From the NCBI GenBank assembly GCA_021904315.1, contig CM038908.1:24820501-24884500 (forward strand): a stretch of DNA of 64,000 bases, in the 5' to 3' direction. This document shows, in pieces, positions 396 to 45,342 of the stretch. The first letter of the stretch is position 1. Every line of letters starts with the position of its first letter. The position numbers were made by a program, and so were the translations under genes. This DNA comes from Sphagnum magellanicum (taxonomy: Eukaryota; Streptophyta; Sphagnopsida; Sphagnales; Sphagnaceae). The notes beneath the pieces are model-generated. The model was not told where the DNA came from. It searched no databases and saw only the letters and a program-made list of their open reading frames with translations.

Positions 396-2075
396 TCAGA
401 CAGAGGAAGTTGGAGCATTATCTATATCTTTCACACCCACTACCACCCTTAGAAGGTCGAGACCAACTCTTGCTTTTGTCAAGTCAGAGACTGCTCCCAT
501 TTCAGGTAGCTCGATGCCTACAATCTCACTAAGCTTCTCCACATCCTTCCAAAGGGAAAATTGGGGTGGAAATGCCTCCCCAAGGATTTTCTGTATTACA
601 GTGATCTCACTCCGTAGATGCCAAGCAATCTCTCCAGTTGACGGAGGAGATGAAGGTAATGGCTTGCCCTTGTCTCTTGCCCGCCAGTAAGACAATAGTC
701 CCTCAAATTCTCCAGAAAACACATCAATGCTCTCAATACACACAGTTGATCCAGGAGGAAATTCTGAAGAACGAGATGCCATGATATCCTTCCTGTGTCC
801 AGGCCACTCCTCGTATCCTGTCCCAAACTCTTTGAACCTGTGGCGTTGTTGTGGTGTCTCATACATAGGGGAGGAACTGGTGGGAGCATATGCCTTGTCA
901 TCATGTTTCTCTAACAAGCATGTAGCATTCAAATCTGCTTCTGCTGTCCATTCCCTGCTTCCCCTTGCTTCTCCATTCTGGTTCGCATCAAGGTGCCTTT
1001 GAATTCCATACTCAGAATGTGAACTGGTCGCATCAAGAGATTGCTCAGGAACATCCTCTTCATGAGGTACTGCACCTGGCATTTTCCTAGCCAAAAGGTC
1101 CTCTTCTGACTTCTCTTGTCTTTTAAGCACGTCCTGGACAGACCTTCTCTGTGCTTCCTCAGGCCTTTCCTCTAACTTATAGCCAACCAGAGATTCTGCT
1201 GCTGCTTCTGCCATCAAAGCTTGTTGAGGAGGTGCTGGGAATGAAAACTGGGAAAATGTCGTAGCTACCTCTGCTTCTTCCTTGCCTCTCTCAGAATCCT
1301 TGGTGTACTTTTGTTGCTGTGGCAATGACCATTTGCTGGTCCCATTGGACTCCAACAATTCATCATGACCTCCTTCAGCACAAACGGCAAGGGCTGCCTT
1401 AAAGCTCGTGGAATCCTCCTCTCTTTCTGTCAAGCCTCCGTCAGGACCTGCTTTGGCGATGCTTGTTTCTTCCTCATGGTGATGGCTGTTGTGTGGTACT
1501 TCTTTCGCACTTGAAACTTCCAAAGCATCAATATCAGTCTCTGCTCCTTGGTAACCAGGACTGATGTCGACGACTTCCTGAACTTCCTTCGGTCCTTTGT
1601 CGTCATCGGACAATCGCAAACTCAAGACTGCATCCAGCATCCTTTTCGATTCGTCATCACCGTCGTCATAGCTTTTTAGAGACGTCCTGTCTTGACTACC
1701 ATATCCCCCTTCATGAGCAATTCCAGACTTCTCATTAACAAGAGGTTCTGCAGGTTGCAAATCTGAGACGGCACCTCTTGGCAGGGACTTGGAGAAGAAG
1801 GACGGATACAAAACACGGAAGAAGAGGACGCAGGCACCGATCCCGCTCAAAATAGGAACCGCAAACAGCAAACCGGCAAAGAAAGAGAAAATGAAAACCG
1901 GCAACAGAATCGGAACCGATCCCAACACAAGCATCCACAAAGTCAAATGTTTGCCCGCCATCCAAATCTGATTCGCCATGTTCCGCGTCCGTGTGACAAT
2001 CCACCTGCCTCCTCCATCGTCATCGCTCCACACCACTCCTACCTCTTGTCTCACATACTCTACAGCTGCTCTCAT
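396..2075 (-). CDS. Membrane-hairpin protein with acidic disordered middle and conserved-looking C-terminus; function unknown
   Basis: A single uninterrupted 559-codon frame, far longer than any other in the window and with protein-like composition. Seen directly: a hydrophobic stretch at about residues 43-95 (two potential helices with prolines between, ending near RVLYPSFF); then about 350 residues rich in Glu, Asp, Ser, Lys and His that look disordered; then a compact C-terminal region (about 455-550) containing the motifs FEGLLSYWRARDKGK, WKDVEKLSEIVGIELPE and LLRVVVGVK. A second in-frame ATG at 1979 (MANQIWMAGK) lies closer to the hairpin and has the stronger context (AACATGG), so the protein may be 527 residues. 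Hydrophobic hairpins of this kind anchor proteins in the ER or lipid-droplet monolayer. The C-terminal pattern reminds me loosely of plant lipid-droplet-associated interacting proteins, but that is weak recall. No intron is needed inside the frame. Confidence 0.85.
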   Translation of the reverse strand: MRAAVEYVRQEVGVVWSDDDGGGRWIVTRTRNMANQIWMAGKHLTLWMLVLGSVPILLPVFIFSFFAGLLFAVPILSGIGACVLFFRVLYPSFFSKSLPRGAVSDLQPAEPLVNEKSGIAHEGGYGSQDRTSLKSYDDGDDESKRMLDAVLSLRLSDDDKGPKEVQEVVDISPGYQGAETDIDALEVSSAKEVPHNSHHHEEETSIAKAGPDGGLTEREEDSTSFKAALAVCAEGGHDELLESNGTSKWSLPQQQKYTKDSERGKEEAEVATTFSQFSFPAPPQQALMAEAAAESLVGYKLEERPEEAQRRSVQDVLKRQEKSEEDLLARKMPGAVPHEEDVPEQSLDATSSHSEYGIQRHLDANQNGEARGSREWTAEADLNATCLLEKHDDKAYAPTSSSPMYETPQQRHRFKEFGTGYEEWPGHRKDIMASRSSEFPPGSTVCIESIDVFSGEFEGLLSYWRARDKGKPLPSSPPSTGEIAWHLRSEITVIQKILGEAFPPQFSLWKDVEKLSEIVGIELPEMGAVSDLTKARVGLDLLRVVVGVKDIDNAPTSSV

Positions 2076-2780
2076 TGCTCCTGGCTTTTATTCTTTTGCC
2101 AAAAAAAATCGTCCAGAATGTAGAACAAGAACAAGAATCTACCTCTATTGCACGATCGACCTTGTCCACCACACTCCTTCCTTTCTTGTCCCTCTTCCTT
2201 CCAAGAAAAGCCGCAACTACCTCTCACATTCCTTCCGTAAAAGGAGACACGACAAGAAGAAACTGAGCTAGTCACAGAATCTCAGCAAGAAAAAGACAAA
2301 AGTTCCAAAACTATAATCCGATGATACTCTAACTCCAGCATACCTGCCACCGAGAACAACGGCAAAAGAAGTCTCGTCTCATTCGCATCCACCAAACCCG
2401 ATGCGTCCGTCCGCGTTAATTCATTCCACAAACATAAGTGCGTGCATTCTTCAACCGCCCAGCCCTTCAACAAAACAACCATCACCCCAACCCGACACAC
2501 AAAATCCTCCGAGGTTCAACGCCCAGAGAGGAGAAGAGCAAAGCAAAATCTGTATCCACTCCACTAATAATAACAAGTACTAGTAGCCTACGATCTCAAT
2601 TTTGCAGGGAGAGGAGTCTAGCAGCAACAAGCAAACCCAACCTGGCAAGCTCCAAATAGAAAGCACCAAACAAAAACTTCCGCAAAGCAAAATTCTTTGT
2701 TTACAAGGAAGAAATGGGCACACATGATGCAACTTTCTAAAATCCCACTGTCTGTTTCCCATGTGAAATGTTCCTTCTGC
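2076..2780. other. Upstream region of the first gene (5' UTR/promoter)
   Basis: This stretch has higher GC than the downstream intergenic DNA and is free of recognisable repeats. It lies immediately 5' of the minus-strand gene and probably holds its leader and promoter. The short frames in it show no family resemblance. I could not place a TATA box or transcription start with confidence. Confidence 0.4.
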
Positions 2781-5840: not shown

Positions 5841-8037
5841 GGAATTTATTGCGATAGGCCAAGCAGAATGCACCCGATGAGATCCAGTAGTTTGAATTAT
5901 TTCGCTTGGAAGATTCCCTCCAAGGACAAGTCCAGCAGACTCTTGCGGAACTCATCAAGCTCCCATTTAAGGATGGACAAGTTAGACTCGATCGACGTCG
6001 AGTTCGGGAAGACGGTCGCCAGCCCAACGTAGAAGCGGCGCAACTGGTGGAATCGCGCGCCATCGAACGAGTCCCACGCCTTGTTGAACGTCGTCATGTG
6101 ATTGTGCTGGTCAATGATCGACGCGATGCCGTTCTCCCTGCAGTACGCCGTGAGCAGCTCGCGATGATCGTTCTCAATTGCGTTGTTCTGGTAGTCGGTC
6201 CAGGCGGTCGCCTACAGCTGTGCCATGCGCGGCTCAATCACCTCGGAGATGAACGTCGAGGATCGCATCTTGATGAAGTCCATCGGCATGACAGGCGGCG
6301 CCAGGTTGACGGTCGCATTATTGGCTGGGCTTCGACCTTGGCGATGCCGTCCGATATGTCGATCACGAAGCAAGCAACCATTCGCAGGACGATCATCCTT
6401 TCATTGGTGTCGATCAACAGCCAATGCGCTTGCATGCGCGTGCCAAGGTCGTCGACGTACTCACGCAGCGTCGTCAGTAGCACGAACGAATCATCCCTGC
6501 GCACGTAGTTGGCGATCAATAGGTTGTCAAAGGCGCCATCCTCCTCGTCTTCAATGTGGCGCACCTTGAACATGTCGCGAATGTCTTTCGTGAGAAACAC
6601 CAACAGCTCGCATTGCTGGCAGATCACCAAATCGCGCGCTTGCAGCTTCACGATCGTCTCATTGATTATGGCGATGACCGGGGCGAACACGTACATCTGC
6701 ATCCACCAGGATGGCGTCAGGATGTGCGGCGCGGCATTGCCGGCCTGCTAGAAGCGCTCGTCGAGGAACCCGATGATGCGCGACACTCGAGTGATGTAGA
6801 ACTTGAGCACCGACCTGAGCGTGACCCATCGGTTTGTCTTCTTCGGGCACGTCTCGCCCATATCGGTGATCAGGTTCGACTACTTGCAGTGGTATGTGGA
6901 CAAGGTGTAGCAGGTCTTGACCCAGGCGCTGCCATCGACTTCGTCGACCACCACGTGAACGACCAGGTCGAATTGGTGAGGTGCGCACCAAATCTGAACG
7001 ACCTTGAATTCGACACGCCGCACCATGTGGACTTGGACGCCGTTGCGGTGACCCATGTTGGTCTTCTCGCCGTCCGTCGTGACGCCAATCAGCTTGCGTG
7101 TCCACCCAGCGAACAGCTAGACGAGCATGGCTTCTTGGTTGGCGACCGTGTGGTGGTCGAAGTGCGGCATGGCGATCAAGTGCAAGTTGTACAGGACGTC
7201 GTTCACGCTGATACGGATGTAGACGTCAAAGAACATCGTGCCGCGATGCTAGCTGCCATCAAACGACAGTGCAAACGCCCACACATCATCGCTCGCCATG
7301 ATATTGCTGATGACTTGTAAGGCGTGGGCAACCAGGATTCGCACATACTGCCCGACAATCGTGTCGTTGAGGCCGTCGAACTTGGCAATCTTGCAGGTGT
7401 TCTTGGTTTGTTCGATCGTCGTCGCGACCTGCCGGAATGACAAGCCACACAACACGTGCTGGATGGCGAGCTTGAAGTGCACGACTCTCTTGATGTTAAC
7501 AGTGTAGCCGTCGTTGTTCTCGTTCAGCTTGAACAGCTGCAGCGCACCACGACGTAGCTTCTCGATCTTTTGGTTACGATCGCCAACGCTAGCCAAGTCG
7601 TCGTCGGTGGTGGCGTCGAGTTCGTCTTCAGGGTGGAACAACATTTCGCCGATGATCACATCGACGATCTTGGTAGAAACGACCAGGTTGATCTCGTCGC
7701 CCTCCATGTCAATGTAGTGATACATGGTGTTGGCGCGGGGCTGCACCGAGTCGAAGAACGAATCCTGCTCGCCGGACAACAGCGCGACGTACTCGGCCCA
7801 CTTAACGGCGTGTTGCCCCTCGACATGCTTGAACATGAGGTCGACATGAAACGGGATCGCGTAAAACTGGTCGGTCCTGCGCGGGCCACGTTTGTGATTG
7901 TTCAAGAGGACCTGTCAGCCGAAGTATTTGCAGAATTTGCAACGGGCTTCCTTGACGCATGCGCCTTCTTGTTGAATCACTTCCAGGGCGTACTTGCGCC
8001 GGTAGGAAAGCTGCCAGCTGCCGCGCGACTTCGTCAT
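5841..8037 (-). pseudogene. hAT-like transposase, degraded (oomycete-like family)
   Basis: The ATG at 8037 opens MTKSRGSWQLSYRRKY. A C-x2-C ... H zinc-finger-like region (CKFCKYFG) follows near residues 33-41, then a long open stretch at 7905-7249 (RTDQFYAIPFHVDLMFKH, DVWAFALSFDGS). Further motifs in the same direction are HRGTMFFDVYIRI (about 7246-7208), WCAPHQFDLVVH (about 6990-6950) and a C-terminal segment (about 6097-5897) with STSIESNLSILKWE and SLEGIFQAK, which looks like the hAT dimerisation region. The coding run is broken by several in-frame stops (for example TGA in codon 41 and a TAG after DGS) and by one frameshift near 6320. The usual length would be about 730 residues. From memory the family is abundant in Phytophthora; I cannot verify this here. 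Confidence 0.75.
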
Positions 8038-8060
8038 AACCAACGTTGGAGTCGATAGCA

Positions 8061-17399: not shown

Positions 17400-19700
17400 C
17401 CACAGAGAAGCAACAACAATAGCAGTGGTATGGATCTAATCTTGCTTAAACAATAAATGTGCCTAAATGGTAAACCCATTGCAGTAAGAAGAAGAAAAAG
17501 AAGAAGAGATCTGGAGCACACTACATCCTACTATTATGTGTTTTGCAACAAATGATGTGCAACAACAAAAGCTAGATTGCAACAAAACCCAAAACCCTAT
17601 TTAGACCTTGAAACTTTCCTTAATTTTAGGGAATAAATTCTCTAAAACCATATGCACCCATGATCATGGAGAACCACCCAAGTAGAAATTCTCTTATGTG
17701 ATCATCATTGTGCAAAACCCATCAACACAAAATGTTTTTGTTTGTACGAAGAAATAAATGCCCAAAGATTTATTTTTTGCAGTTTGTTTTGCCTCTTTAT
17801 GCTTGTAGCTTACCTACTATTATTTGTTTTTGGGTGTTCTCTCCTCATGAATTTTTCTTTTATTTTGGGAATAGGAAATGTTTTTGTTTCTAGAGATTTT
17901 TTTTTATTGCAAAGGTGAAGCCACATAATGACTACTAGAACAACTACTACTATTTGTGTGGGCCTTCTGAAAGTAGCTTTCTATGTAAAGTGAAGAAGAG
18001 TAGCAAAGGAGAAACATTGTTGTAATAATCTAGAAGCACAAAATCAAATTGCAAAAAACCAAGAATAAAAACTATAACAACAAATTGGAAATGGAGAAAG
18101 GAGAAGAAGAGACACTAAATGAATCAAACATAACATCAGACAAAAATTAGTGTCGTTGAAAGTGGAGAAAGCTTATCACCTAACACCAAAGAAAGAGAGA
18201 GAAAGGATTTACAAGATTTAGGTTGGAAAATTGCAAATTGAAACAATTGAAAAATGAACATAGTGGATTATCATGCTTTTGATGCTTTCAAAGTTCTTAG
18301 CTCTAGCTTTGCGAGAAAATCAGATCCAATAGTTGATGATGATGATCATCATCATCTTGCCATGAACCTCATCAACACTACTAATGCTCTAGATGTCAAA
18401 GGTGTGTTTATTCTATTTTGCAAGAAAGAGATTTGATTGATGATGATAATGATGTTGCCATGAATTCAGCACTACTGACTAATGGGATCTAGATGTGAAA
18501 TTATTTCTTTTCATTGCTTTATGAAAACTTAGAAATTGCACTTGTTATTGATGATGATGATTTGATCTTGCTATCTATCATGTAAATTGGGACCTACATG
18601 CTTGGTATGTATGTTTAAAAGAATAGGAAATCCACAACTTCTAAGGAAGACTGAAGTTTATCAAGCATAACAATAACAGAAGCAATAAATGCAAGGTGCA
18701 TATCCTTTTCAAGAGTTTTAAATCAAGAACGAAACCAAATGAGCTACCAGGAATTACAATTGCAACTGAATGGAGTTGCTACAAAAAGAAGAAATGCAAC
18801 TAAATGGAATTGCTACAGAGGGGAAAAATGCATCTAAATGGAGCTCTTGCAAAGAGAAGAAAGACAACTAAATGGCTGAATGGAAAAAAAATTCTTAATT
18901 AAAGGAGTTCAAATGCACTTGGTGATGGAATTGTGAGCAATCACAACATCAACAAGTTTAATAGCTCGCTGTTTATCAACGATCAAAAGTTCACAAATTG
19001 GTAAACTTTGCAAATATCTTCATCATATGTATTCCTTTTATTATTATCAATCAAAAGCCCACACCTCTGAGTTTGCTAAATGGGTGGTTTTTTAAAATGC
19101 CTTTCAAGTGCTAGTGATCATGATCAAGTCTTCTTCTTCCTTGTTTGTTGCTAGAAAATGCAATAAAATTTTTGAGATGGCACATGTCTTTGTATAATAA
19201 ATAGTTTTGTGTTAAATTTTACAACAAATTCTTATTTTACTTATCTACATCGACCATTGGGAAGTTATTGATGAAGTCAACGAGTGGGTAGTCGTCGTGG
19301 CAAGTCAGAAGCTAATGATGTCCAATCTTGTGTAGACTCATGAAGATGGTGATCATCTAAAAATTTAGGTGAACAATTTTTTTTTTAAAATTTATTTTCT
19401 TTCTCACACATGATAACTTACATGATAACATTCAATTGTTGTGTTTACCTTTGAATGATTTTTGTTGATGTGGGAGATTTTCTCTACAAATTTTCATAAT
19501 TCATCAAGATGGCGAAGTTTTTTTTTTAGTTAAATTTCATTTTTAATTAGTTGAAACTTTCCAAACCATTCTTTTAACAAATCCATTGTGGGAAATTTGT
19601 AACCCAAGTTTTGTTGAAAAGACTTAAATTAACTTATTGAGTAAATCTTTTCCATTTGCAAATGAAGCTCTTTAGTTGCTGATGTAAGATGTAATTTAAA
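17400..19700. other. AT-rich intergenic DNA with a duplicated GATGATGAT block
   Basis: A block near 18330-18530 containing GATGATGAT, TTGCCATGAA and CTAGATGT occurs twice in tandem at about 100 bp spacing. Nothing else is recognised. Confidence 0.45.
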
Positions 19701-19719
19701 ATCCTAGACATTCCATGTA

Positions 19720-20340
19720 GAGATTTCAAATTTCAGTTTTCAATATTCAAACATTTCAATTTTCAATTTTCTATGTTCAAACATTTCAATATTCAATTTT
19801 CAGTGTTCAAACATTTCAGTTTTTTGTTTTCAATATTCAAACATTTTAGTTTTTAGTTTTTAGTTTTAAGACATTTTAGTTTTCAGTTTTCATACATTTC
19901 AATTTTCAAATGTTTTAATTTTGAGTATTTAGAAATTTCAGTTTCCAATTTTCAGTATTTAGACATTTTAATTTCCAGTTTTTAGTATTTAGACATTTCA
20001 ATTTCAATTTTCAATATTCAAACATTTCAGTTTTTTTAATTTCAAATTCCTTCCAAACATTTCACCAAAAGATTTCAAATTTCAGTTTTCAATTTTCAAT
20101 TTTCAATTTTCAACTTTTAGTATTCACACATCCAAATTCAAACATTTTAGTTTTCAAATTTTCAAATTCTAAACACTTCACATAGAGATTTCAATTTTCA
20201 ATTTTCAACTTTAAGTATTCACACATCCCAATTCAAACATTTCACATACAAATTTTAAATTTTAATTTTCAACTTCCAATTTTCACACATCGAAATTCAA
20301 ACATTTCAGTTTTCAAAATTTTAGATTCCAAACATTCCAT
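19720..20340. repeat. Degenerate tandem tract based on TTCAATTTTCAGTATTCAAACA
   Basis: About 600 bp is built from variants of a roughly 20-28 bp unit (CATTTCAATTTTCAATATTCAAA), with irregular spacing and some larger sub-blocks (CACATCCAAATTCAAACATTT). No coding potential. Confidence 0.75.
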
Positions 20341-21070
20341 ATAATGAAGTAGCTTGGCAAGTTTGACACATGCCTCTCAAACAATTAATTAATTTTAAAT
20401 ATTCAATTTCAAAAAATAAAATACTCCTAAAGATTCTTTATTTTCCTTCCTTATGAGTTGGTCTTTGGAATAAAATATTGATCATGGTCATATAACATTT
20501 ATATCACGTTGCAGAAAGACATTACACGACGAGCTACTTGTGAAAGTGAGTCCACTTTAAACCCAATTTGTCAAATTGCCACAAACTAAAAGTTAGTGAT
20601 AAGCTCCCTATAATTTATTCCTTCCTGTGAAAACTGCTATACACCTTCCCTATTCATTAGATGGACTGCCTCACAAGTTCAATTATTTTTTTTGCATGGA
20701 GCCTATTTGATTGGCCCAACACTCAAAAAAGATTGAAGGTATGGGAGATCACCAATAAAGAAGGTTCAATTTTGGCCGATGTATATACGTTAAAGGAGGA
20801 CAACAGTTGCCAAAGCATATGGGATAAAATTGAAGTGCTGGTGGGAACTTTTTGGGGAACATGTCAGGCACTTGGAAAGCCTTTGCTGTGAGTAGTGACT
20901 CTCCCCCAAAAAACCAAAAACGAAAAAAAAAAAAAAACTTGCATGGAAAGTACATCTTCTTCAGTGGTGCATTTTCATAATCTCTCCTGAACACATTTGA
21001 GGACTGATCTGTTCCTGACTTTCAATCCCAATTTCTACACTAACAACATCCATGACACTCTTGCTAGAAA
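20341..21070. other. Downstream flank and probable 3' UTR of the three-exon gene candidate
   Basis: This lies 3' of the minus-strand coding exons ending at 21071. The part nearest the gene is less AT-rich. An AATAAA-like signal on the minus strand is possible near 20615. No other feature. Confidence 0.3.
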
Positions 21071-26949: not shown

Positions 26950-27218
26950 GCACCCCTTAAAGCTTGTCAAATGGTATTAGGGTAAACTTTCCAACACAAT
27001 ATGTTATGAAAGACTTAAAAACTTTTGGCACTCTTCTTGACTCCTTGTGCTTGGGTTTAGAAAGGCATTTAAAGCTCTGGGATGGGATTAGGATGAGCTT
27101 CCCAAGATGAACTTTCAAACATGTGAAATGCACAAACCAAGATAAAAGGGCAATTTGCACATTTGGGGTCAAATTGGGTCATGAACTTGTCATGGATTCA
27201 TAATAAATTCACACAACC
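26950..27218 (-). mobile_element. Left part of an old, AT-decayed family-1 LTR split by the gypsy element
   Basis: Weak but ordered similarity to 14205-14470, best at the inner edge (CATTTGGGG, TCATGG, CACACAAC). The matching continuation resumes at 36941 after the inserted element. Boundaries on the outer side are uncertain. Confidence 0.5.
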
Positions 27219-27530
27219 TGTCATGCTCGTACATGGCCTCATACATGATGGCCAATTACGGGCATGCCCATCATGCCTTTTAAGGTTAATGTGCACTTTT
27301 AGGGTTAATGTACGGTCTTAGGTGATTGTACGTTATTAAGTACTTAGGGTTTCAGTTTGTTGGCGGTTGTATAAAAGGCCAAGCCTTTCCTTTCTCTTTT
27401 TAATTTTTCTAAAATTTTTTTATCAAGAGAATTTTCTCCATAGTCAAATTGGATTTCTAGATGTTAATGACAGCCATTGCATGGCCACCATTTACATACA
27501 TTACATGTTTTTCCTTTTTTGCAAGTCAAT
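27219..27530 (+). repeat. LTR segment A, left copy
   Basis: 312 bp starting TGTCATGCTCGTACATGG and ending GCAAGTCAAT. It aligns without gaps to 36455-36766. A TATAAAAG promoter-like box lies at 27370-27377. The sequence following it is not homologous to what follows the right copy. Confidence 0.85.
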
Positions 27531-28264
27531 TCTAAAAAAAATCTTCTTTGTTGTTTAATGTTGAAAGCAACAAATTTCTTTTGAGCTTTGAGTTCTTTTG
27601 CAGTTGATGTTGTTGTTGTGCTGCTTCTCCTTTCATGTGTTCCTGTTATGGCTATAGTACGAGCGCAAAAAAAGAAGGAGAACTAGCAACAGCTTGCACG
27701 CCGTCCTCTCTTCCACAACAGGAGCAGTTCAAGTAGCAACCTCAACTGCTCCTCCTCTTACCACGACTCTAGTGGGGGCAAAAGAAGTGGTTGTGATGTT
27801 AAGTTCATGTGACAATTTGTTTATCATAGCTATAGTAAGCTCTTGGGTAACATCACCCAGAATCTTCACCTGAACGTGCGTGTGTGCATGCATGCGTGCT
27901 ATAACACAAGAAGAGGCATTGCCAAAGTTTCCACCTCGCACCTGCTGTTGTCTTCTACTGCTATGCAAACCAGTTGTTAAAGAGGACCAATGCAACTTCA
28001 ACAAACACAACGCGACCATGTGTAGTGGTGTTCCTTGATCCAACAACAACATCCAGATCCAAAGCACATGCGTTAATAATCCTTCTGTTGAGGTGGTTGA
28101 CACAATAATTTTCTTTTGTTCCCTCAGACTTTCCTTTTTGTGTGTCTTCTGTCTTTTTCTTTCTCTCTACTCTACTCTTGCGAAAAGAAAAGGAGCGAAG
28201 GCGAACATTAAGGAAACAACAAGCAAACATGAAGTAAAAAAAAAAAAAAAACATTTTTTTCTTC

Positions 28265-28548
28265 GTAGTGCCACAACATCGCGAGTTGCAGCACCACCAT
28301 CGAGAGCTGCAACACCACCATCGCTACAGTGCTGCAACATTACGTGTTATAGTGCTGCCATCACGAGTTGCAACATCACCATTGCTGCAATGCTGTAGTG
28401 TTGCGTGTTATAGCACCACCATAGTTACAGTGTCGCAACGTAACGTTGCGAGTTATAGCACCGCAGCGTAGCCATCGCTATAGCGCAGGGTTGTGAACTG
28501 CAACACCACAACATCGCCATTGCTACAATGCCGCCATCGCTATCGCGT
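28265..28548 (+). repeat. CpG-rich degenerate tandem array, about 45-bp period
   Basis: Repeated variants of CACCACCATCGCTACAGTGCTGCAACA and GTTGCGAGTTATAGC. Unusually CpG-rich for this AT-rich window. Confidence 0.6.
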
Positions 28549-28654
28549 TAGGACGTTTACCCGACTTCTGACATCCATCGTCTGTCAACTTCCGTGCAAC
28601 GTCGAATTTCTGTCCACCAACATTTTATTCTTATTCTTATTTTTATTTCCGTTA

Positions 28655-28810
28655 GATTGCCATCCTACGTCCTACAATACTGCGTCTTGCCGTCCTACGT
28701 ACTAACGTACCGCATCCTGCTCCCCTGTGTCCTGTCATACTACGACTACCGTACTACCGTCCTACGACCTACCGTGCTACCGTCATGCGATCCTACATCC
28801 TATCATATTA
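28655..28810 (+). repeat. Degenerate short array of CTACCGTCCTACG
   Basis: Many variants of a 10-14 bp unit (GTCCTACG, CGTACTACC) lie in the leader upstream of gag. Confidence 0.6.
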
Positions 28811-29199
28811 ACGTCCTGACATTTTATCCGACGTCTATTCGTCACCATTCATTCTCATCATCACACCATATTCTCAAACTGTACATTGTGTTAGAATTTT
28901 GTAGCTAGGGCTTTATATTAATGCAAAATTTTGGGGCATGGGACAACACCATGTCCTCGGATGATGAGAGCACTACCGTTCATCCAGAGCCAAGGTATTA
29001 GTTACGAAGTAACACATAATCCTTTGAACCAATATCTTTGAATTCACGATCTTCCCGACGGTATCATCAAGCATCTACAGTGCCATCGTCATCTAGTACA
29101 ACTCCTATTAGGAATTCAGGTTTAGGTTACATTACATCAACAATACATTAGAGTCCATTTGGAGGGGTTCATGAGTGGGGTACACCTGTAGCCGCACCT

Positions 29200-30480
29200 A
29201 CTTTCACACCATCATCGTATATTCTGCTACAAGTCGTAACCTCTACACCCATATACACCATGGAGGTCAACAGTTCCTTTGGGAAAAATAAAAAGTTTAG
29301 CGGAAGGCCATGTACCATTTCTTTGAGGGAGTTCAAGGCAACTTTCTCAACTGTGATTTGTGAATTGGAGCTCAAGTATGGCGTTAATTACACCGAGGCG
29401 TTTGCATTCAAACAATTGGCCCGTTATGTGCACTATGAGGCATTGGATGTCTACGAGCAACATTCTGCAAAGATTTTGGGTGTCATCCAAATTCCCAATC
29501 CAATTTATGCCATAGCCATCGCCACCACCTCTCAAGCTACATTGCAAGCTACCATTGCACATCATGAGACTATGCCCAATAATCCAGATTCAATACCTAA
29601 TTCAATAAACCTTTCTCCTCAACAACTCATTATTGCTACCACAAACATTCCTCCCACCATCGATGCAGTAGCTTTTGCTGATCCAATGGGGGAATTCCTT
29701 CGAGTTTTTGAGCTAGAATTTTTGGTTAAAAAGTTTTTAAAAAATTTACAGCTCACCACCTTCTCTCAGTAGAAGGATGAAACCTTCAAGATGCTCTGCA
29801 GGAAACTTTTCAAGCTTAAAGAGAATACTTAGAACATCACAGACCTAGAAGCTGCCCATTGGTATCTTCGTTCGTTGGAAGGTACTCCAACACTCCATGC
29901 GTAGGTTTTGCAATAGGTTTTTGCAAAATTTGGAAATTTGCTAGATGTGTAGAACATTTTCGAAAAGCTAGAACTAGCTCATGCACATTATGAGGTTAGT
30001 ATTATGAAGCTTCCATCACGTTCAAGGCCTCAACTTACACTAGCTGCGCCAACCAAATCATCACATTCTTTTTCAAGGGCTAAAGTGGTGCACTCGGCTG
30101 CACCCATCCTACCTTCTTGCAACTACTCTGGCAATCCTGCCCACAAAACTAATGAGTGTAACATTCCTTCCGAGGATCTCTTTCGTGATTATTGTGAGAA
30201 AGAAGGACATCAGGAAGCTATATGTTTTGCCAAGTTCCCGGAATGGAAGCAACTTCGATTACCACGGCAAAATCTGCAAACATCTTTCATTGTCCTTCAA
30301 CCAAAAGCTAAAGCACCTCAGCCTTTCACTCAAGCTTTGCCCACCAAGGGTAATTCCAATAAAAATACTAAGAAGAAGGAACACAATGTTGACAAGAGGG
30401 AGGTGCTTCAAGCCCATGCAATTCAAGTTCAAACTTTACAAAATGAACTCGAATCATTGAGGGCCCAACTTGTTATCTAA
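29200..30480 (+). pseudogene. gag region of the gypsy fossil
   Basis: An N-terminal capsid-like portion lies at about 29260-29990. A basic region with two zinc-knuckle-like sequences follows near 30115-30220 (around GNPAHKTNEC and EKEGHQEAIC). The tail at about 30390-30480 is predicted coiled coil (QTLQNELESLRAQL). Gag proteins of this kind form the particle and bind RNA. The region is broken. Confidence 0.65.
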
Positions 30481-31329
30481 AAGGCAAGTCCTCCCAACCA
30501 GCTAATCATGCCCAACCTATACAAGGTTCAGGATCACGAGAGGGACCTCTTAGGTCGTTCTATGGCCTCCCACACGATGCCATGGTTGGGGAGTATGTTC
30601 TTTCCAATGCACATAATTATAGTCTCACACCAGAATTTGCTACTTCTTTTTGCCCTTCCTATGTCGTGGCACAAGAGGCTAGTGTGGCACCCAAAGTTTC
30701 CGCCACTAGGCAAGTAATTCAGACTGATGGACTCGCATCTGGTTCAAGTTTTATTACCAAGGCTAGAGGACCTCAAGTAGTCATGCCACAATCTTTTTGT
30801 CCTTTCAACACAAAAGAAGAACGCACCTTGTTGGCAAGGGGGGAGGAGACTACTATACCACAAGCTGTTAGGGCATCAAATTCCCATGTCCTAGGAGTAC
30901 ATGTACATCAAGAAAACACACAATTTTCCATTGATCGACTTATGGAATGCTAACTTCAAATGCGTGAAGTGGCATAAAAGCTTGTGAGTACACCGTTGTT
31001 TACTTTTCAAGATTTGAAGCTAAGCACCAAGGACATAATTACAGTACTAGAGGATACCCTGAACATTACATCAGGTCCTCTACCAATCCTTAATCCACAT
31101 GCTACAAAAGTCCCATCCAACACTTTGGAGACACACTCAATTAGCTCACGTGTTGCAGATGGCGTTCGTAATCTAGTCACTAGTTTTAGCATGGTTAAAC
31201 TAATGGGCTTTCCTACCTCTAATTCTACATTCACATATCAGAAGGGAGTTAAGAACATTTCACTTGTGGATTTGTTACTCATCAAAGGTCTTGTGGATAG
31301 CCATTCTCTCCACAAAGTCTCTCACTCAT

Positions 31330-31690
31330 TTCCAAAGGTGGTGCCCAGTGAAAGAACTTCCATCGCCACCAGAGTTGTCATTGTCGACAATATTGGGTCA
31401 GTAATCCAAGTGAGAGGACATACACCCAAAGTGGTACTTCTTGATACATGTGCCCAAGCAGTGATTCTTGGAGTTCAATTCGCCAAGAAGATGGGCATAC
31501 TTGACTCCAAACTACGGAAATTTATGTGGCAGATTTGCACCGCTAATGGGAGCATAGAGGAGGTACTTGGGGAAAACTCGAATTTGATTACACTTAACTT
31601 CAATGAAGGTACAAATCAGGAGCTTTGCTTACAGGTCAGATGTTTAGCCACCAATGCCACGAGTTATGATGTGCTCATTGGGTAAAAGGC
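31330..31690 (+). pseudogene. Retropepsin-like protease region
   Basis: Contains the aspartic protease active-site type motif LLDTCAQ (about 31437-31457) followed by hydrophobic strands, and later SYDVLIG at the expected distance, as in Ty3/gypsy proteases. It processes the polyprotein in active relatives. It lies between gag and the methyltransferase. Confidence 0.7.
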
Positions 31691-32089
31691 CATGTTTCCA
31701 ACAGGTTTCACAATTGACAACTCGTTCAAGCATGCGTAGTACTGAGTGGATTGGGAGACTGATGGCCACCACCTGGGATACATACCCCTTGATTTACATG
31801 GGAACCATAGTCCTATGGTTCACCATTGTATGTTCAAGGAAACACACACAATTCCTTACATCAAACAAGCTAACCATGAGTGGATAAAGGGAGATGAGGA
31901 AATAGCTTACGCGCAAGCTACTGAAAGCTTGAGGGTGGTTCCTATTAACATTCAACATGGACCAAAGGTTTTACAGAAGTTCAAAGCAGCCCACGAGCTC
32001 TTGGTCAAAGCTTTGTCTAATTTTGAAAACATGGAGAGCCATGGCGAACTGATTAAGCTAGTATTTCATTAGCTAATCGCCTAGACACC

Positions 32090-33060
32090 ATTTGAGGAGG
32101 GGATTACATTACTAGAGCTTTTTAGTGGTATTGGTACAGGTCTCGAAGCCCTACTATAGTCAGGGATGGTGGTTCGGAGGTATTTCTACGTAGACATTGA
32201 TCCTATTACAAGGTAAGTGGCAGCATCAAGAATAATGGAACTCACAACTAGATTTCCACAACAATTTTCAACCACCGCATGGAAGGCTAGTTTCACTTTC
32301 TTACCCTCTGACATACAACTAATTCAGAATAAGCATATAGAATTACTTGGCCCTATAAACCTCATCATTTTAGGTTGGGAGTGTCAGGGATTTTCAATGG
32401 CTGGATTTAGAAAAGGCTTGAATGACACAAGATCCGATCTCTTCACGGACATGGTACAATTGATCACCTGGGCTTAATCCATTTCTCTTACGTTTGGTTA
32501 TGTAATTGAGAACACCCCTTCTCAGCTTGACCAAAGGGAGAAAGTCCAGGAGCATTACATGCTGGTCAAGCATTACCTTGGAAAGCCCCTCCTACTTGAT
32601 GTAGCACAATGCGGTTCCTATGCGCACCGGTTGCGCAACTGGTGGACCAACTTGGCACCACTTTCAGTTTTGCAACTAGTTTTGAGATACACCATCAGAG
32701 ACCCCAACCTATAGGTTTCTCACATATTGGATGATTAGAGCTCTTGCCAACCAATTACAAGGCAAGAGAAACCTCCTTGGTTTCCTACAAACACAATAAG
32801 AAAACCAAGAGGTGTTTGGCCCACCTTTGTCTCCTTCCCAAGAGCACATGCCTTTTAAGGAGATGGACCAGGCCTGGTGTATCGTCATGCTTCAGCCATT
32901 TGGGATGAACCAAGCCCAAAAGAAAGAGAAAAGGCTATGGGGTTCCAAGCTATCACTACTAATCACACTAAGGTGACTAGATTGGAATGTAACGCTCTAC
33001 TAGGGAGAGGCATGGACCTGAACTCCCTTACATGGTTGTTGGTAACCTGTGTACTCTTCC
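32090..33060 (+). pseudogene. C5-cytosine DNA methyltransferase domain inside pol
   Basis: Motifs in canonical order: I, LLELFSGIGTGLEALL (about 32103-32153, cofactor-binding loop); II, FYVDIDP (about 32185-32208); IV, GWECQGFSMAG (about 32373-32407) with the catalytic-type Cys in a CQGFS core; VI, VIENT (about 32500-32515); VIII, AHRLRNWWTNL (about 32623-32655); a target-recognition-like stretch of about 90 residues; IX/X, PKEREKAMGF (about 32917-32946) and LLGRGMDLNSLTWLL (about 32998-33042). The family transfers a methyl group from S-adenosylmethionine to C5 of cytosine. The linear order excludes the permuted plant DRM type; CQGFS resembles Dnmt1/CMT/bacterial enzymes, while other segments resemble Dnmt3. 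It sits between protease and RT in the same orientation, so it was part of the element. Broken here. Confidence 0.85.
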
Positions 33061-33389
33061 AAATGTACATAACACTAACATTGATTCAATCAACTTACAG
33101 TTCTAGCGATGCGATCACATGGCACCTCGACCAAATACACTTGCCTATTTTCAACACTCTACATTTCACTCTTAGTGTTGGGGGGGAAGAGGTACCATGT
33201 AATTTGACCCAAGTTGTGTCTGATACATGTGGAGGTACATCAGCTTTTGGAGAAACAATTACAACCTTTTACAAATCTGCGCAGTTGGATAGTGGAAAAC
33301 CCAATACACTAAGTTCTTCAAATACACTTTCCAATTCCATTCCATGTGTTTCCAACTACCCTTTCATTATGGGGAACTAACTCACCAAG

Positions 33390-34160
33390 AAGGAGAGAGA
33401 CCAGGTCACAGATTTGCTAATTAAGTATGAGAATGTGTTCACATTCTTAATGAAAGACTTAGGTAGGTGTAAGACCATGTAGTTCTCTATAACCCTTACA
33501 GATGAGACACCCATCTATCGGAGGAGGCATAGGTTGAGCAAGCATGAGTGGGAACTGGTAAATGAAAGATGCAAATAGCTCCATGAAGCTGGTCTCATTC
33601 AACCATCAAGTTTTGATTTTGCAGCTACTAAAATAATGCCAACAAAAAAGGATTCAGCTGGATTATGGACTGAGAAAAGGATGTGCGGGGATTATAAGCC
33701 TTTGAACCTAATTACACCTCAGGACAAGTACCCCATTCCATCCCTGAGGAACTATTTGATAACATTGGAGACTCAAACATCTTCACAATTATGGATCTAA
33801 GGCAAGGCTTTAACCAAATTGTGCTCACTATGAAGGATCACAAGAAAATGACATTCCATGGAAACAACAAGTTGTGAGAATGGCTTGTGATGCCTTTTGG
33901 ATTGAAGAATGCACCTGTCTTCTTTTAACGAATCATGAACCAGGTTTTCGAAGGGGCAAATTTCTTGAAGTGCTACATAGATGACGTCCTAGTGCATAGC
34001 AAGGGACTCCTGCATCACTTAGTTCATCTTGAAGAGTTATTCAAGAAGCTCCACGAAGTCAATATGAATATCCATCCTAAAAAGTGTGAATTTGTTATCA
34101 CCTTAGTAATCTGCTTTGGACACAGAATTTTGCCAAATGGTATTATGGTTCATTAGGCCA
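33390..34160 (+). pseudogene. Reverse transcriptase region
   Basis: Ty3/gypsy RT signatures in order: RRRHRLSKHEWE, RMCGDYKPLN (about 33688), a conserved MDLRQGFNQI-type segment (about 33790), and the catalytic-loop motif KCYIDDVLVHS (about 33968-34000), then NIHPKKCEF (about 34066). Family role: copying the element's RNA into DNA. The region is broken in several places. Confidence 0.85.
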
Positions 34161-34319
34161 TAGTAGTAGCCATTTTGGAGATGCCCAATCCTATTGATGT
34201 TCACACGTTGAGGAGCTTCATCGGATTATGTAATTACTACATAATTTATGTCCAAAACTTCAGTACTATTGTTCATCCTCTCTATGCATTGTTATAAAAG
34301 GATGTTGCTTAGACATGGA

Positions 34320-34735
34320 GTGATGAGGCTCAGGAAGCTTTCAACACACTCAAGGAAAAGCTTTCACAATTCCCCATTCGGAGAAGACCTGATTTCAACA
34401 AGGTCTTCATTCTACACATTGACTAGAGTGCTCTTGGTACTAGAGTTATTCTTGGCTAACTTGATGAAGAAGGCAAAGAATATGTTATTGCCTATGCATC
34501 CCAAAGCAACAACAAGGTTGAGAGCAACTACTCTTCATACGAAGAGGAGTGCCTTGTTGTTGAATGGGTTGTCATACATTTCAGGCCCTATGTTTATGGC
34601 ACCAATTTCACTTTGTATACCAACCACCAACCTATCAAGTGGTTGATGACCAACGATAAGCTTACTAGTAAGTTAGCTCGTTGGGCGTTTATACTTTAAG
34701 AGTATGAGTTCAAGGTTATTCACCGATGCATCTAA
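34320..34735 (+). pseudogene. RNase H region
   Basis: Directly follows RT. Typical gypsy segments such as YAYASQSN-like and TLYTNHQPIKWL-like stretches can be read in the plus frames (about 34490-34650). Broken. Confidence 0.7.
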
Positions 34736-34929
34736 TTATCTTGCACTACTATAATGTAACCTGGTTGAGCATCCCATTGTGGATATATGGGAGGACTTGG
34801 ACACTCAAAGGTTTTTTCAGCATGGGGAATACCTTCCCCAAGTTACATCAAGTCAGCGGGATCGCATACAAAAATGGTCCAACTGCTACTCATGGAAGGA
34901 CAATCACCTCGTCCGATGCTTACCACAAG

Positions 34930-35945
34930 GCGACAGAATGGTTCCTCCACCACATGAACAACCTGGTCTTATTCAAAAGGTACACTCGGAGCTTGGACAT
35001 TTGGAGTTAAACGTACTTATAGCCTTCTCGCTCCTCATTACCATTAGAGAGGTATGTATGTTCAAGTCCGAGACGTCATTGTTAGGTGTGAACAATGTGA
35101 TAGAGTGAGAACTTCTTTCTCCTCTTGACAGATCACACTTTCTCCACTCCCTATCAAGGGCATGTTCTATCGTTGGTCATGTGATTTAGCTGGAGAGTTA
35201 TCACAAACCTCCAAGGGTAATGTTTACATCATGATTATGATTAAGCATTTTTCAAAGTGGGTTGAGCTTCTTGCGCTACCAGACAAGTCATCAACAACAC
35301 CAACCAAGTTTTCTTACAATAGGTTCTAAGTAGGTTTGGGGCTTGTGCTGAGTGCCTTATTAATCAAGGATCAGAATTCAGGGGAGAATTTCCAGACCTA
35401 CTTGACCATGCTCTCATTGACCATCATCGGACTTCAAAAAATCACCCCCAAGCTTATGGCCTTGAAGAGAGGATGGTTCAAACGTGCAAGAAGGGACTTC
35501 GGAAGATTTGCCTCACTAGGAACAAAGAGGATTGGGACCTGGCCTTCCCTTACATTGTCATGGGTTACAAGATGTCCAAACACGCCTCTTTGTCTCATTT
35601 CTCTCCTTACTTTCTACCTTTTGGGAGACATCCCATTCCACCCTCTTTCATTGTTACTCAAATGGACCAAGTTATGGACTTGGACTCCCAGCCACTTGGG
35701 CTAGGGTCATTATAGAAAAGGCTGCTCTATTTTGGAAGGTTATGCCCATGGCCATGGAGAACTTATCCATTACACAACATCAAGACACCTTACGATATGC
35801 ACACACACGAAGTGGCAATTACAAACCTAAGGTGAGACAATTTGATGTTGGTGACTTTATGTATCTCCAACGGCAACCTAATGATACTCTAGACATTTCT
35901 TCCAATCGCATTATTTTAAAGATTAAGGTAATCAGGCCTTCTGGT
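34930..35945 (+). pseudogene. Integrase region
   Basis: A zinc-binding type start with HSELGH (about 34984) and a later C-x2-C pair (CEQCDRVR, about 35089); the catalytic core with WSCDLAGE (about 35174), SKWVELLALP (about 35256) and NQGSEF (about 35362); and a C-terminal part with VGDFMYLQRQ (about 35847). Order and spacing fit Ty3/gypsy integrases. I see no chromodomain at its end; a PHD-finger module follows instead. Broken. Confidence 0.75.
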
Positions 35946-36075
35946 GTGTTGGAGTTATAAAGAGCTAACGAACACACAATTCGGGATCACTCCAAAAATT
36001 GTGTGCCCTACCAGCTGCCAAATTTGGACCCTACCATCATCAAGTGGACTTGGATTCCTCCACTTGACTATCCAT

Positions 36076-36230
36076 GTCAAGTATGTCAGAGGACAGATGA
36101 TGCTCATTAGATGTTGTTTTGCGATAATTGTAATGGTGGATACCATCTCTTCTACTTCAAGTCGGAGCTCATTCAAGTTCCTATCGACATTTGGTACTAT
36201 TCATCATGTTCTTTTGCAGCACTATGATTT
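36076..36230 (+). pseudogene. PHD-finger module at the 3' end of pol
   Basis: The stretch CQVCQRTDDAH ... FCDNCNGGYHLF ... VPIDIWYYSSC reproduces the spacing and flavour of a PHD zinc finger: C-x2-C pair, a loop rich in D, C-D-x-C with GGYH, then a W ahead of the last S-S-C. PHD fingers in host proteins read the methylation state of histone H3 tails. It starts roughly 40 codons after the integrase tail and ends about 40 bp before the polypurine tract, so it is the last coding module of the element. Broken like the rest. Confidence 0.75.
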
Positions 36231-36264
36231 CTACTCAGACCATGCCACACTTTTCCCAGCTCGG

Positions 36265-36277
36265 GTTTAGGGGGGGG
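36265..36277 (+). promoter_or_regulatory. Polypurine tract
   Basis: GTTTAGGGGGGGG lies immediately before LTR segment B. In this family such a tract primes plus-strand DNA synthesis and marks the start of the 3' LTR. Confidence 0.7.
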
Positions 36278-36448
36278 ATACATGAGAATTTCATCTCAAC
36301 CTCCTCTTGTGTATTGTATATATATGTGCGTGCATCTCTTTTTGGTTGAATAGTTTCTACCTTTGGTTGGTTTTAATCTTTTTGTTTTGTAGAGTTTACT
36401 ATGGATTTACACCCTTACAACACCATACATCACAACATTGCATGTCAC
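36278..36448 (+). repeat. LTR segment B, first copy
   Basis: 171 bp beginning ATACATGAGAATTTCATC directly after the polypurine tract. It aligns without gaps to 36767-36937. Confidence 0.85.
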
Positions 36449-36454
36449 GATAGC

Positions 36455-36766
36455 TGTCATGCCCGTACATGGCCTCATACATGATGGCCAATTACGGGCA
36501 TGCCCATCATGCCTTTTAGGGTTCATGTGCACTTTTAGGGTTAATGTACGGTCTTAGATGACTGTACGTTATTAGGTACTTAAGGTTTCAGTTTGTTGGC
36601 GGTTGTATAAAAAGCCAAGCCCTTCCTTTCTCTTTTTAGTTTTTCTAGAATTCCTTTGTCAAGAGAGTTTCCTCCATAGTTAGATTGGATTTCTAGATGC
36701 TCATGGCGGCCATTGCACGGCCACCGTCTACATACATTACATGTTCTTCCTTCTTTGCAAGTCAAT
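36455..36766 (+). repeat. LTR segment A, right copy
   Basis: 312 bp, gap-free partner of 27219-27530, starting TGTCATGCCCGTACATGG and containing TATAAAAAG at about 36606. It lies between the two B segments. Confidence 0.85.
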
Positions 36767-36937
36767 ATACATGAAATTTTCATCTCAACCTCCTCTTGTG
36801 CATTGTATATATATTTGTGTGCATATCTTTTTAGTTGAATAATTTCTACCTTCGGTTGGTTTTAGTCTTTTTGTTTAGTAGAATTTACTATGGATTTACA
36901 CCCTTATGACACCGTACGTCACGACACTACATGTCAC
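36767..36937 (+). repeat. LTR segment B, second copy
   Basis: 171 bp following segment A, duplicate of 36278-36448. The two B copies are offset by exactly 489 bp. It ends in CATGTCA followed by CAACA, which resembles the CAACC preceding the element at 27214-27218. Confidence 0.85.
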
Positions 36938-45045: not shown

Positions 45046-45050
45046 GTACA

Positions 45051-45342
45051 GCACAATTCACCTGCGGGATTCTTCCCTCTATTGGAATGCACATTCCAGC
45101 AGCACAATTCACGTGCGGGATCAAATCCTCTATTGGAATGCACATTCCAACAGCACAATTCACCTGCGGGATCCTTCCCTCTATTGGAATGCACATTCCA
45201 GCAGCACAATTCATCTGCGGGATCCTTCCCTCTATTGGAATGCACATTTCAGCAGCACAATTCACCTGCAGGATCCTTTCAAATGCACATTCCACAATTC
45301 ACCTGCGGGATCCTTCCCTCTATTGGAATGCACATTCCAGCA
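45051..45342. repeat. 51-bp minisatellite, about six units
   Basis: Units start at 45051, 45102, 45153, 45204 and 45255 (shortened), with a final unit from about 45293. The consensus includes GCACAATTCACCTGCGGGAT and CTCTATTGGAATGCACATTC. Because 51 is divisible by 3, several frames stay open on both strands; the minus-strand reading gives a repeated 17-residue NCAAGMCIPIEGRIPQV. No evidence shows it is translated. Confidence 0.9.

Follow-up and report, generated by a model that had tools for sequence, protein, structure and literature searches.

The window analysed here, a stretch of 64,000 nucleotides from the moss Sphagnum magellanicum, contains the remains of a retrotransposon with a cytosine methyltransferase inside its pol region. 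With a probability of roughly 0.6, we read it as a dead copy of an old Ty3/gypsy-type lineage that regularly carries a DNMT3-like methyltransferase between protease and reverse transcriptase (RT), ends its integrase in a PHD finger, and methylates its cDNA or its target. Many relatives have the methyltransferase at the same place, flanked by protease and RT, which supports its being an integral component of a Ty3/gypsy-type pol. The arrangement poses a puzzle, namely that a genomic parasite carries the enzyme which its hosts use to silence it. In the papers accessible, earlier cases come from one charophyte alga and from dinoflagellates; moss and liverwort hosts bring the question into plants that are open to genetics and methylome work.

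The features of the element are compiled in Table 1. Its four direct repeats stand in the order A-internal-B-A-B, which differs from a simple LTR pair and is seen here in one copy. No target-site duplication was obvious by eye at the ends of this decayed copy, no tRNA primer site was recognised by eye after A1, and the window had no match in tRNA or Rfam scans. The split repeats would come from integration of end-joined or circular DNA: reverse transcription would yield B-A-internal-B-A, the ends would join as a two-LTR circle, and the integrase would open the B/A junction.

Table 1. Features of the retrotransposon, in window coordinates
Feature	Position	Strand	Basis
Whole element, A1-internal-B1-A2-B2, ~9.7 kb	27218..36937	+	Window self-comparison
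Repeat A1; TATA-like tataaaag near 27371	27218..27530	+	91.4% identity to A2 over 313 bases
gag, decayed	29260..30471	+	tblastn with P0168 residues 1-407, 66.8% identity
Aspartic protease, DTG changed to DTC	31422..31790	+	tblastn with L001 first frame; Pfam on 31158-31661
C5-cytosine methyltransferase, DNMT3-like, six premature stops	32094..33068	+	PF00145, reading frame, motifs, nearest PDB chain DNMT3A
RT and RNase H, in two frames here	33354..34726	+	Pfam RVT_1 and RT_RNaseH on 33755-34630; tblastn with L001 second frame
Integrase, DDE (rve) type, split over several frames	34776..35748	+	tblastn with L001 second frame (rve PF00665 E=1.2e-13)
PHD finger remnant, integrase C terminus	36075..36209	+	tblastn with P0078 and L001 second frame, both with PF00628
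G-run directly before B1, polypurine-tract-like (putative function)	36270..36277	+	Sequence
Repeat B1	36278..36448	+	88.9% identity to B2 over 171 bases
B1/A2 junction motif, near-palindromic, 16 bases	36446..36461	+	Recurs in L001 with 2 mismatches
Repeat A2	36454..36766	+	Window self-comparison
Repeat B2, abutting A2	36767..36937	+	Window self-comparison

A sequence-only reading of this DNA had proposed a C5-cytosine methyltransferase at 32090-33060, between protease and RT and in the same orientation. The limits proved correct within about 10 bases, and a Pfam profile search with DNA_methylase (PF00145) matched the domain significantly (E=1.2e-8, 35.2 bits, cut-off 22). Motifs I, IV, VI, VIII, IX and X, as we label them, follow one another in canonical order. 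The neighbouring Pfam domains all lie on the plus strand, as proposed: the protease match (E 4e-4) falls under the curated cut-off in this decayed copy, RVT_1 (E 8e-23) and RNase H (E 1e-25) lie downstream of the methyltransferase, and both the protease and the beginning of the RT share the phase of the methyltransferase frame. Single-frame Pfam scans of 34773-35732 and 35731-36204 gave no match because the integrase is split over frames; the PHD remnant in the window itself had no Pfam match either.

Over its 325 codons, the methyltransferase frame is free of frameshifts and has six stops, against 14 to 27 in each of the other five frames. First-order Markov sequences of matched composition contained 16.8 stops on average, with six or fewer in 13 of 5000. 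Together with the relatives, these counts rule out a chance open reading frame. A stop-free gag-protease-methyltransferase protein (P0168) can be aligned to window 30477-32882 as a single block of 806 columns (66% identity); P0123, which runs from methyltransferase into RT, aligns to 31830-33548 at 78% identity. All six stop positions are occupied by glutamine in most close relatives (e.g., 35 of ~39 and 67 of ~73), which fits C-to-T decay of a coding copy; of the 27 differences between A1 and A2, 21 show T or A in A1 against C or G in A2, and four run the opposite way. We read the stops as ordinary decay of the C-to-T kind. The copy is dead, as the protease DTG is now DTC, gag is out of frame with pol and the integrase is in pieces. 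Stronger CpG depletion inside the element was considered and rejected: observed/expected CpG is 0.45 in the element, 0.28 in the methyltransferase, and 0.22 and 0.15 in the 10-kb flanks, so that the element is no more depleted than its surroundings.

Elsewhere in the window, a 562-codon open frame at 402-2087 (minus strand), without a Pfam match at E 0.1, is possibly a host gene. Long overlapping open frames on both strands at 5891-8055 had weak Pfam matches below cut-off, and tandem-like internal repeats occur at 19692-20343 and 45048-45342.

Relatives were collected in three protein searches at E 1e-3 or better, which returned 288, 1025 and 108 proteins, the best 120, 120 and 108 rows being used; the second and third search scored only the 8000 candidates sharing most words. 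Rows represent 90% clusters, some of which share one contig. A local profile matched 262 rows (261 proteins and the window), and the family was defined as those at 70 bits or more, i.e., 226 rows (225 database proteins and the window); 34 rows lay at 30-63 bits, and two fragments at 15-20 bits were dropped from the counts. At least 226 rows form one family by the local profile among the matches listed. The named hosts among these matches are three Sphagnum species, the liverwort Calypogeia fissa and the alga Closterium. Matches to the window domain came from S. magellanicum (81% over 25%), S. balticum (80% over 38%), S. compactum (72% over 63%) and C. fissa (57% over 83%), and the protein of Closterium sp. 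NIES-54 has 39% identity to P0131. Taken by themselves, these matches would suggest a Sphagnum-like host for the window. No relative was confirmed among the 24, 24 and 2 pattern matches from three scans of viral contigs. A prokaryote genome scan gave 153 pattern matches with five confirmed, namely the contig described below (L001) and four short Streptomyces matches. One row, on a 2.4-kb contig (P0126), is labelled as an Obscuribacterales MAG.

The gene order proposed from the window recurs among the database relatives. The protease lies upstream in the same open reading frame in 23 of the 226 family rows and the RT downstream in 10, many other rows being fragments without flanks, and the reverse order was found in none of the 226; P0106 was left uncounted, its protease match overlapping the start of the methyltransferase. 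Six proteins (P0123, P0007, P0172, P0173, P0177 and P0181) read on from the methyltransferase into the RT, and the frames of relatives are stop-free across both methyltransferase junctions. Two members depart from this order and count against a regular architecture. In a 7.6-kb metagenome contig (P0160), the methyltransferase is followed by an integrase zinc domain with no RT between them, and in a gene model of Closterium sp. NIES-54 (P0182), a copia-type gag domain precedes the family methyltransferase. These architectures hint at a transfer of the enzyme family from one element type to another.

An intact relative with both chromatin modules is L001 (CADCWO010000201.1), a whole element on a 9,285-base contig from the prokaryote genome scan. 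The contig is labelled Synechococcales AVDCRST_MAG81, and its two ends share an overlap of 127 bases. Judged by its content, it is probably eukaryotic contamination of a cyanobacterial MAG. Its first stop-free frame encodes gag, protease and methyltransferase (1162 residues, open at the contig edge); its second, in the same frame and separated from the first by one TAG, encodes RT, RNase H, integrase and PHD finger (1047 residues). Four relatives (P0162, P0163, P0164 and P0171) share the exact C-terminal residues of the first frame and P0167 nearly does; the stop thus seems conserved in that clade. At 3489-3497 of L001, this TAG is followed by CAATCA, which fits the CARYYA context of read-through stops. 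The 16-base motif at the B1/A2 junction of the window occurs once in L001, with two mismatches, between a G-run and gag, where 0.04 matches with three or fewer mismatches are expected.

The methyltransferase has evolved in step with the protease. For the 11 members with both domains, window included, the identities of the two domains correlate with r=0.965, a value reached in none of 20000 permutations. L001 and P0161 are 81% identical over 315 methyltransferase residues without a gap and 82% in the protease, as against 60% in gag and 48-49% in the linkers. Towards P0166, P0131, P0165 and P0168, the identities of L001 are 57, 57, 61 and 44% in the methyltransferase and 62, 61, 59 and 38% in the protease. 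At the protein level, this conservation looks like selection for function; for the Klebsormidium domain, purifying selection with Ka/Ks < 0.2 is given in PMC5890265. The presence of this kind of element in mosses and a liverwort, with an enzyme no less conserved than its protease, indicates that the domain has been useful to the element over long times.

Usefulness could take a form other than catalysis, in that the domain was kept as a polyprotein module for folding or for binding DNA or RNA after methyl transfer had been lost. We regard this as unlikely, albeit as the strongest of the alternatives. In motif IV, an unusual ECQ-type sequence replaces PCQ in 86 of 154 rows, which would suit a non-catalytic module, as would the finding that the Klebsormidium domain produced no methylation in yeast, a result described as inconclusive by its authors in the part of the paper available (PMC5890265). 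Against it, the catalytic cysteine is kept in 149 of 155 rows, the motif VI glutamate in 143 of 154 and the second motif VIII arginine in 107 of 139, although many rows are decayed copies, and PCQ itself is kept in 60 of 154. Moreover, SymbioDIRS Dnmt3 domains were active de novo in yeast (PMC5890265).

As judged from sequence comparison, the family is a DNMT3-like cytosine methyltransferase, DNMT3 being the nearest known enzyme. Among solved structures, DNMT3 comes closest in both sequence and fold, and the nearest PDB chain is DNMT3A. DRM, DNMT1 and DNMT2 were ruled out as nearest kin by score, and the DRM class also by motif order, which is canonical and not permuted. NCBIfam gave only a dcm match, under cut-off, in six of six proteins. 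The sequence-only reading had noted a CQGFS-like motif IV beside Dnmt3-like segments and considered the origin unclear; the motif is indeed a trait of the methyltransferase family, whereas the origin is clearer than was supposed, given the proximity to DNMT3. According to the portions available of two papers, the companion domain of plant DNMT3 is DUF3444 (PMC12344493, PMC6453930). Neither this domain nor ADD or PWWP was found beside the methyltransferase in 28 listed proteins scanned with Pfam at E 0.01 or in 18 of 25 members of the alignment, many of these proteins being partial.

An origin from a bacterium or virus instead of eukaryotic DNMT3 is improbable, more so than the loss of catalysis. 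It would account for PCQ in part of the family, as the PCQ-type glutamine is found in 32 of 34 generic C5 enzymes, while the PCN of DNMT3A is not matched by the family. The tree places the family apart from generic C5 enzymes; DNMT3A joins it with weak support (94/78) and a long branch, which leaves some room for such an origin, and the placements of Closterium and of P0261 are weak too. The latter, DIRS-like by eye, falls outside the family on a long branch. Weakest is the proposal that a host gene fragment was captured by, or inserted into, this single copy by chance: although only one copy was read in the window's genome, such a private capture is ruled out by the co-inheritance with the protease (r=0.965) and by recurrence in a 226-row family, at the same position in moss and liverwort relatives with stop-free passage through both junctions.

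With the PHD finger, the element has a chromatin module besides the methyltransferase. PF00628 is matched in a protein of S. magellanicum (P0078, E 8e-10) and in L001 (E 4e-10), and both PHD ends align to window 35.7-36.2 kb; no chromodomain was matched in either at E 0.01. Among solved structures, those that match the L001 finger best include CHD4, PHF12, Cph2, UHRF1, KMT2D and KDM5A, and KDM5 and BAZ2 are also named among its kin. Several such PHD fingers read H3 tails unmethylated at K4, and a corresponding histone preference of the element may be inferred from these PDB relatives.

Under our preferred reading, that of a lineage equipped for methylating its own cDNA or its target, the methyltransferase would be made in line with Gag and protease and enter the virus-like particle, where it would methylate de novo either the new cDNA of the element or the DNA at the insertion site. 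The PHD finger would direct the integrase to chromatin whose histone tails are in a particular state. A new copy would thus be born methylated and be tolerated in a methylated host genome. The ECQ majority, the lack of methylation by the Klebsormidium domain in yeast, called inconclusive by its authors (PMC5890265), and CpG depletion no stronger than in the flanks count against self-methylation. More tentatively, and on balance doubtfully, the lineage may have rebuilt the logic of de novo methylation within its polyprotein, with a DNMT3-type writer in Pol and an H3-tail-type reader at the end of the integrase, so that integration and methylation are coupled across algae, mosses and liverworts and ECQ reflects a changed substrate or rate. 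If true, each insertion would arrive already methylated in chromatin of a selected type. Through its PHD finger, the element in any case offers a testable link of insertion site to methylation.

The precedent cited in the sequence-only reading holds: de Mendoza et al. 2018 report, in the text available, Dnmt3 methyltransferases inside the Pol open reading frame of a Klebsormidium Gypsy element (PMC5890265). A 2025 DNMT survey further places DNMT3s in LTR Copia and DIRS retrotransposons of streptophytes and dinoflagellates, and its accessible part makes no mention of Sphagnum or bryophytes (PMC12344493). In the literature searched, chiefly non-subscription, no report was found of a land-plant host, a PHD finger or the motif IV variant.

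Among known systems, SymbioDIRS-Dnmt3 and SymbioLINE-Dnmt of dinoflagellates likewise are retrotransposons bearing a cytosine methyltransferase, and the A-coding region-B-A-B layout is given for the DIRS type in the part of PMC5890265 available. Unlike the gag-protease-RT-DDE integrase set found here, they use a tyrosine recombinase or LINE machinery. A DIRS or tyrosine-recombinase element was rejected for the window, as rve and Integrase_H2C2 are present in L001 and P0173 and the window aligns to both. DNMT3 enzymes resemble the family in profile score, fold and motif order, but have PCN where the family has PCQ or ECQ; ADD, PWWP and DUF3444 were not found adjoining in the proteins scanned, and the PHD finger of the element lies at the opposite end of the polyprotein from the methyltransferase. 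Chromoviruses are Ty3/gypsy elements with an integrase chromodomain; they likewise carry a chromatin reader at the integrase C terminus, whereas the present element has a PHD finger instead of the chromodomain and a methyltransferase in addition.

Closest is KnitGypsy-Dnmt3 of Klebsormidium nitens, compared here by its published description and not by sequence, no named Klebsormidium sequence being among the matches listed. Its host is an alga, that of the present element a moss, and no PHD finger is mentioned for the former ('phd' has 0 occurrences in the main text of PMC5890265, as available). In common are the protease, RT, RNase H and DDE integrase, present in the window element and intact in L001, and an unpermuted methyltransferase of the Dnmt3 class within Pol. 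The Klebsormidium element is further described, in the same available text, as combining Gypsy-type domains with the repeat structure of DIRS elements (PMC5890265), i.e., the A-coding-B-A-B order seen here in one copy. On account of this shared layout, the element looks like kin of the Klebsormidium precedent, a dead copy of the KnitGypsy-Dnmt3 kind and not a new kind.
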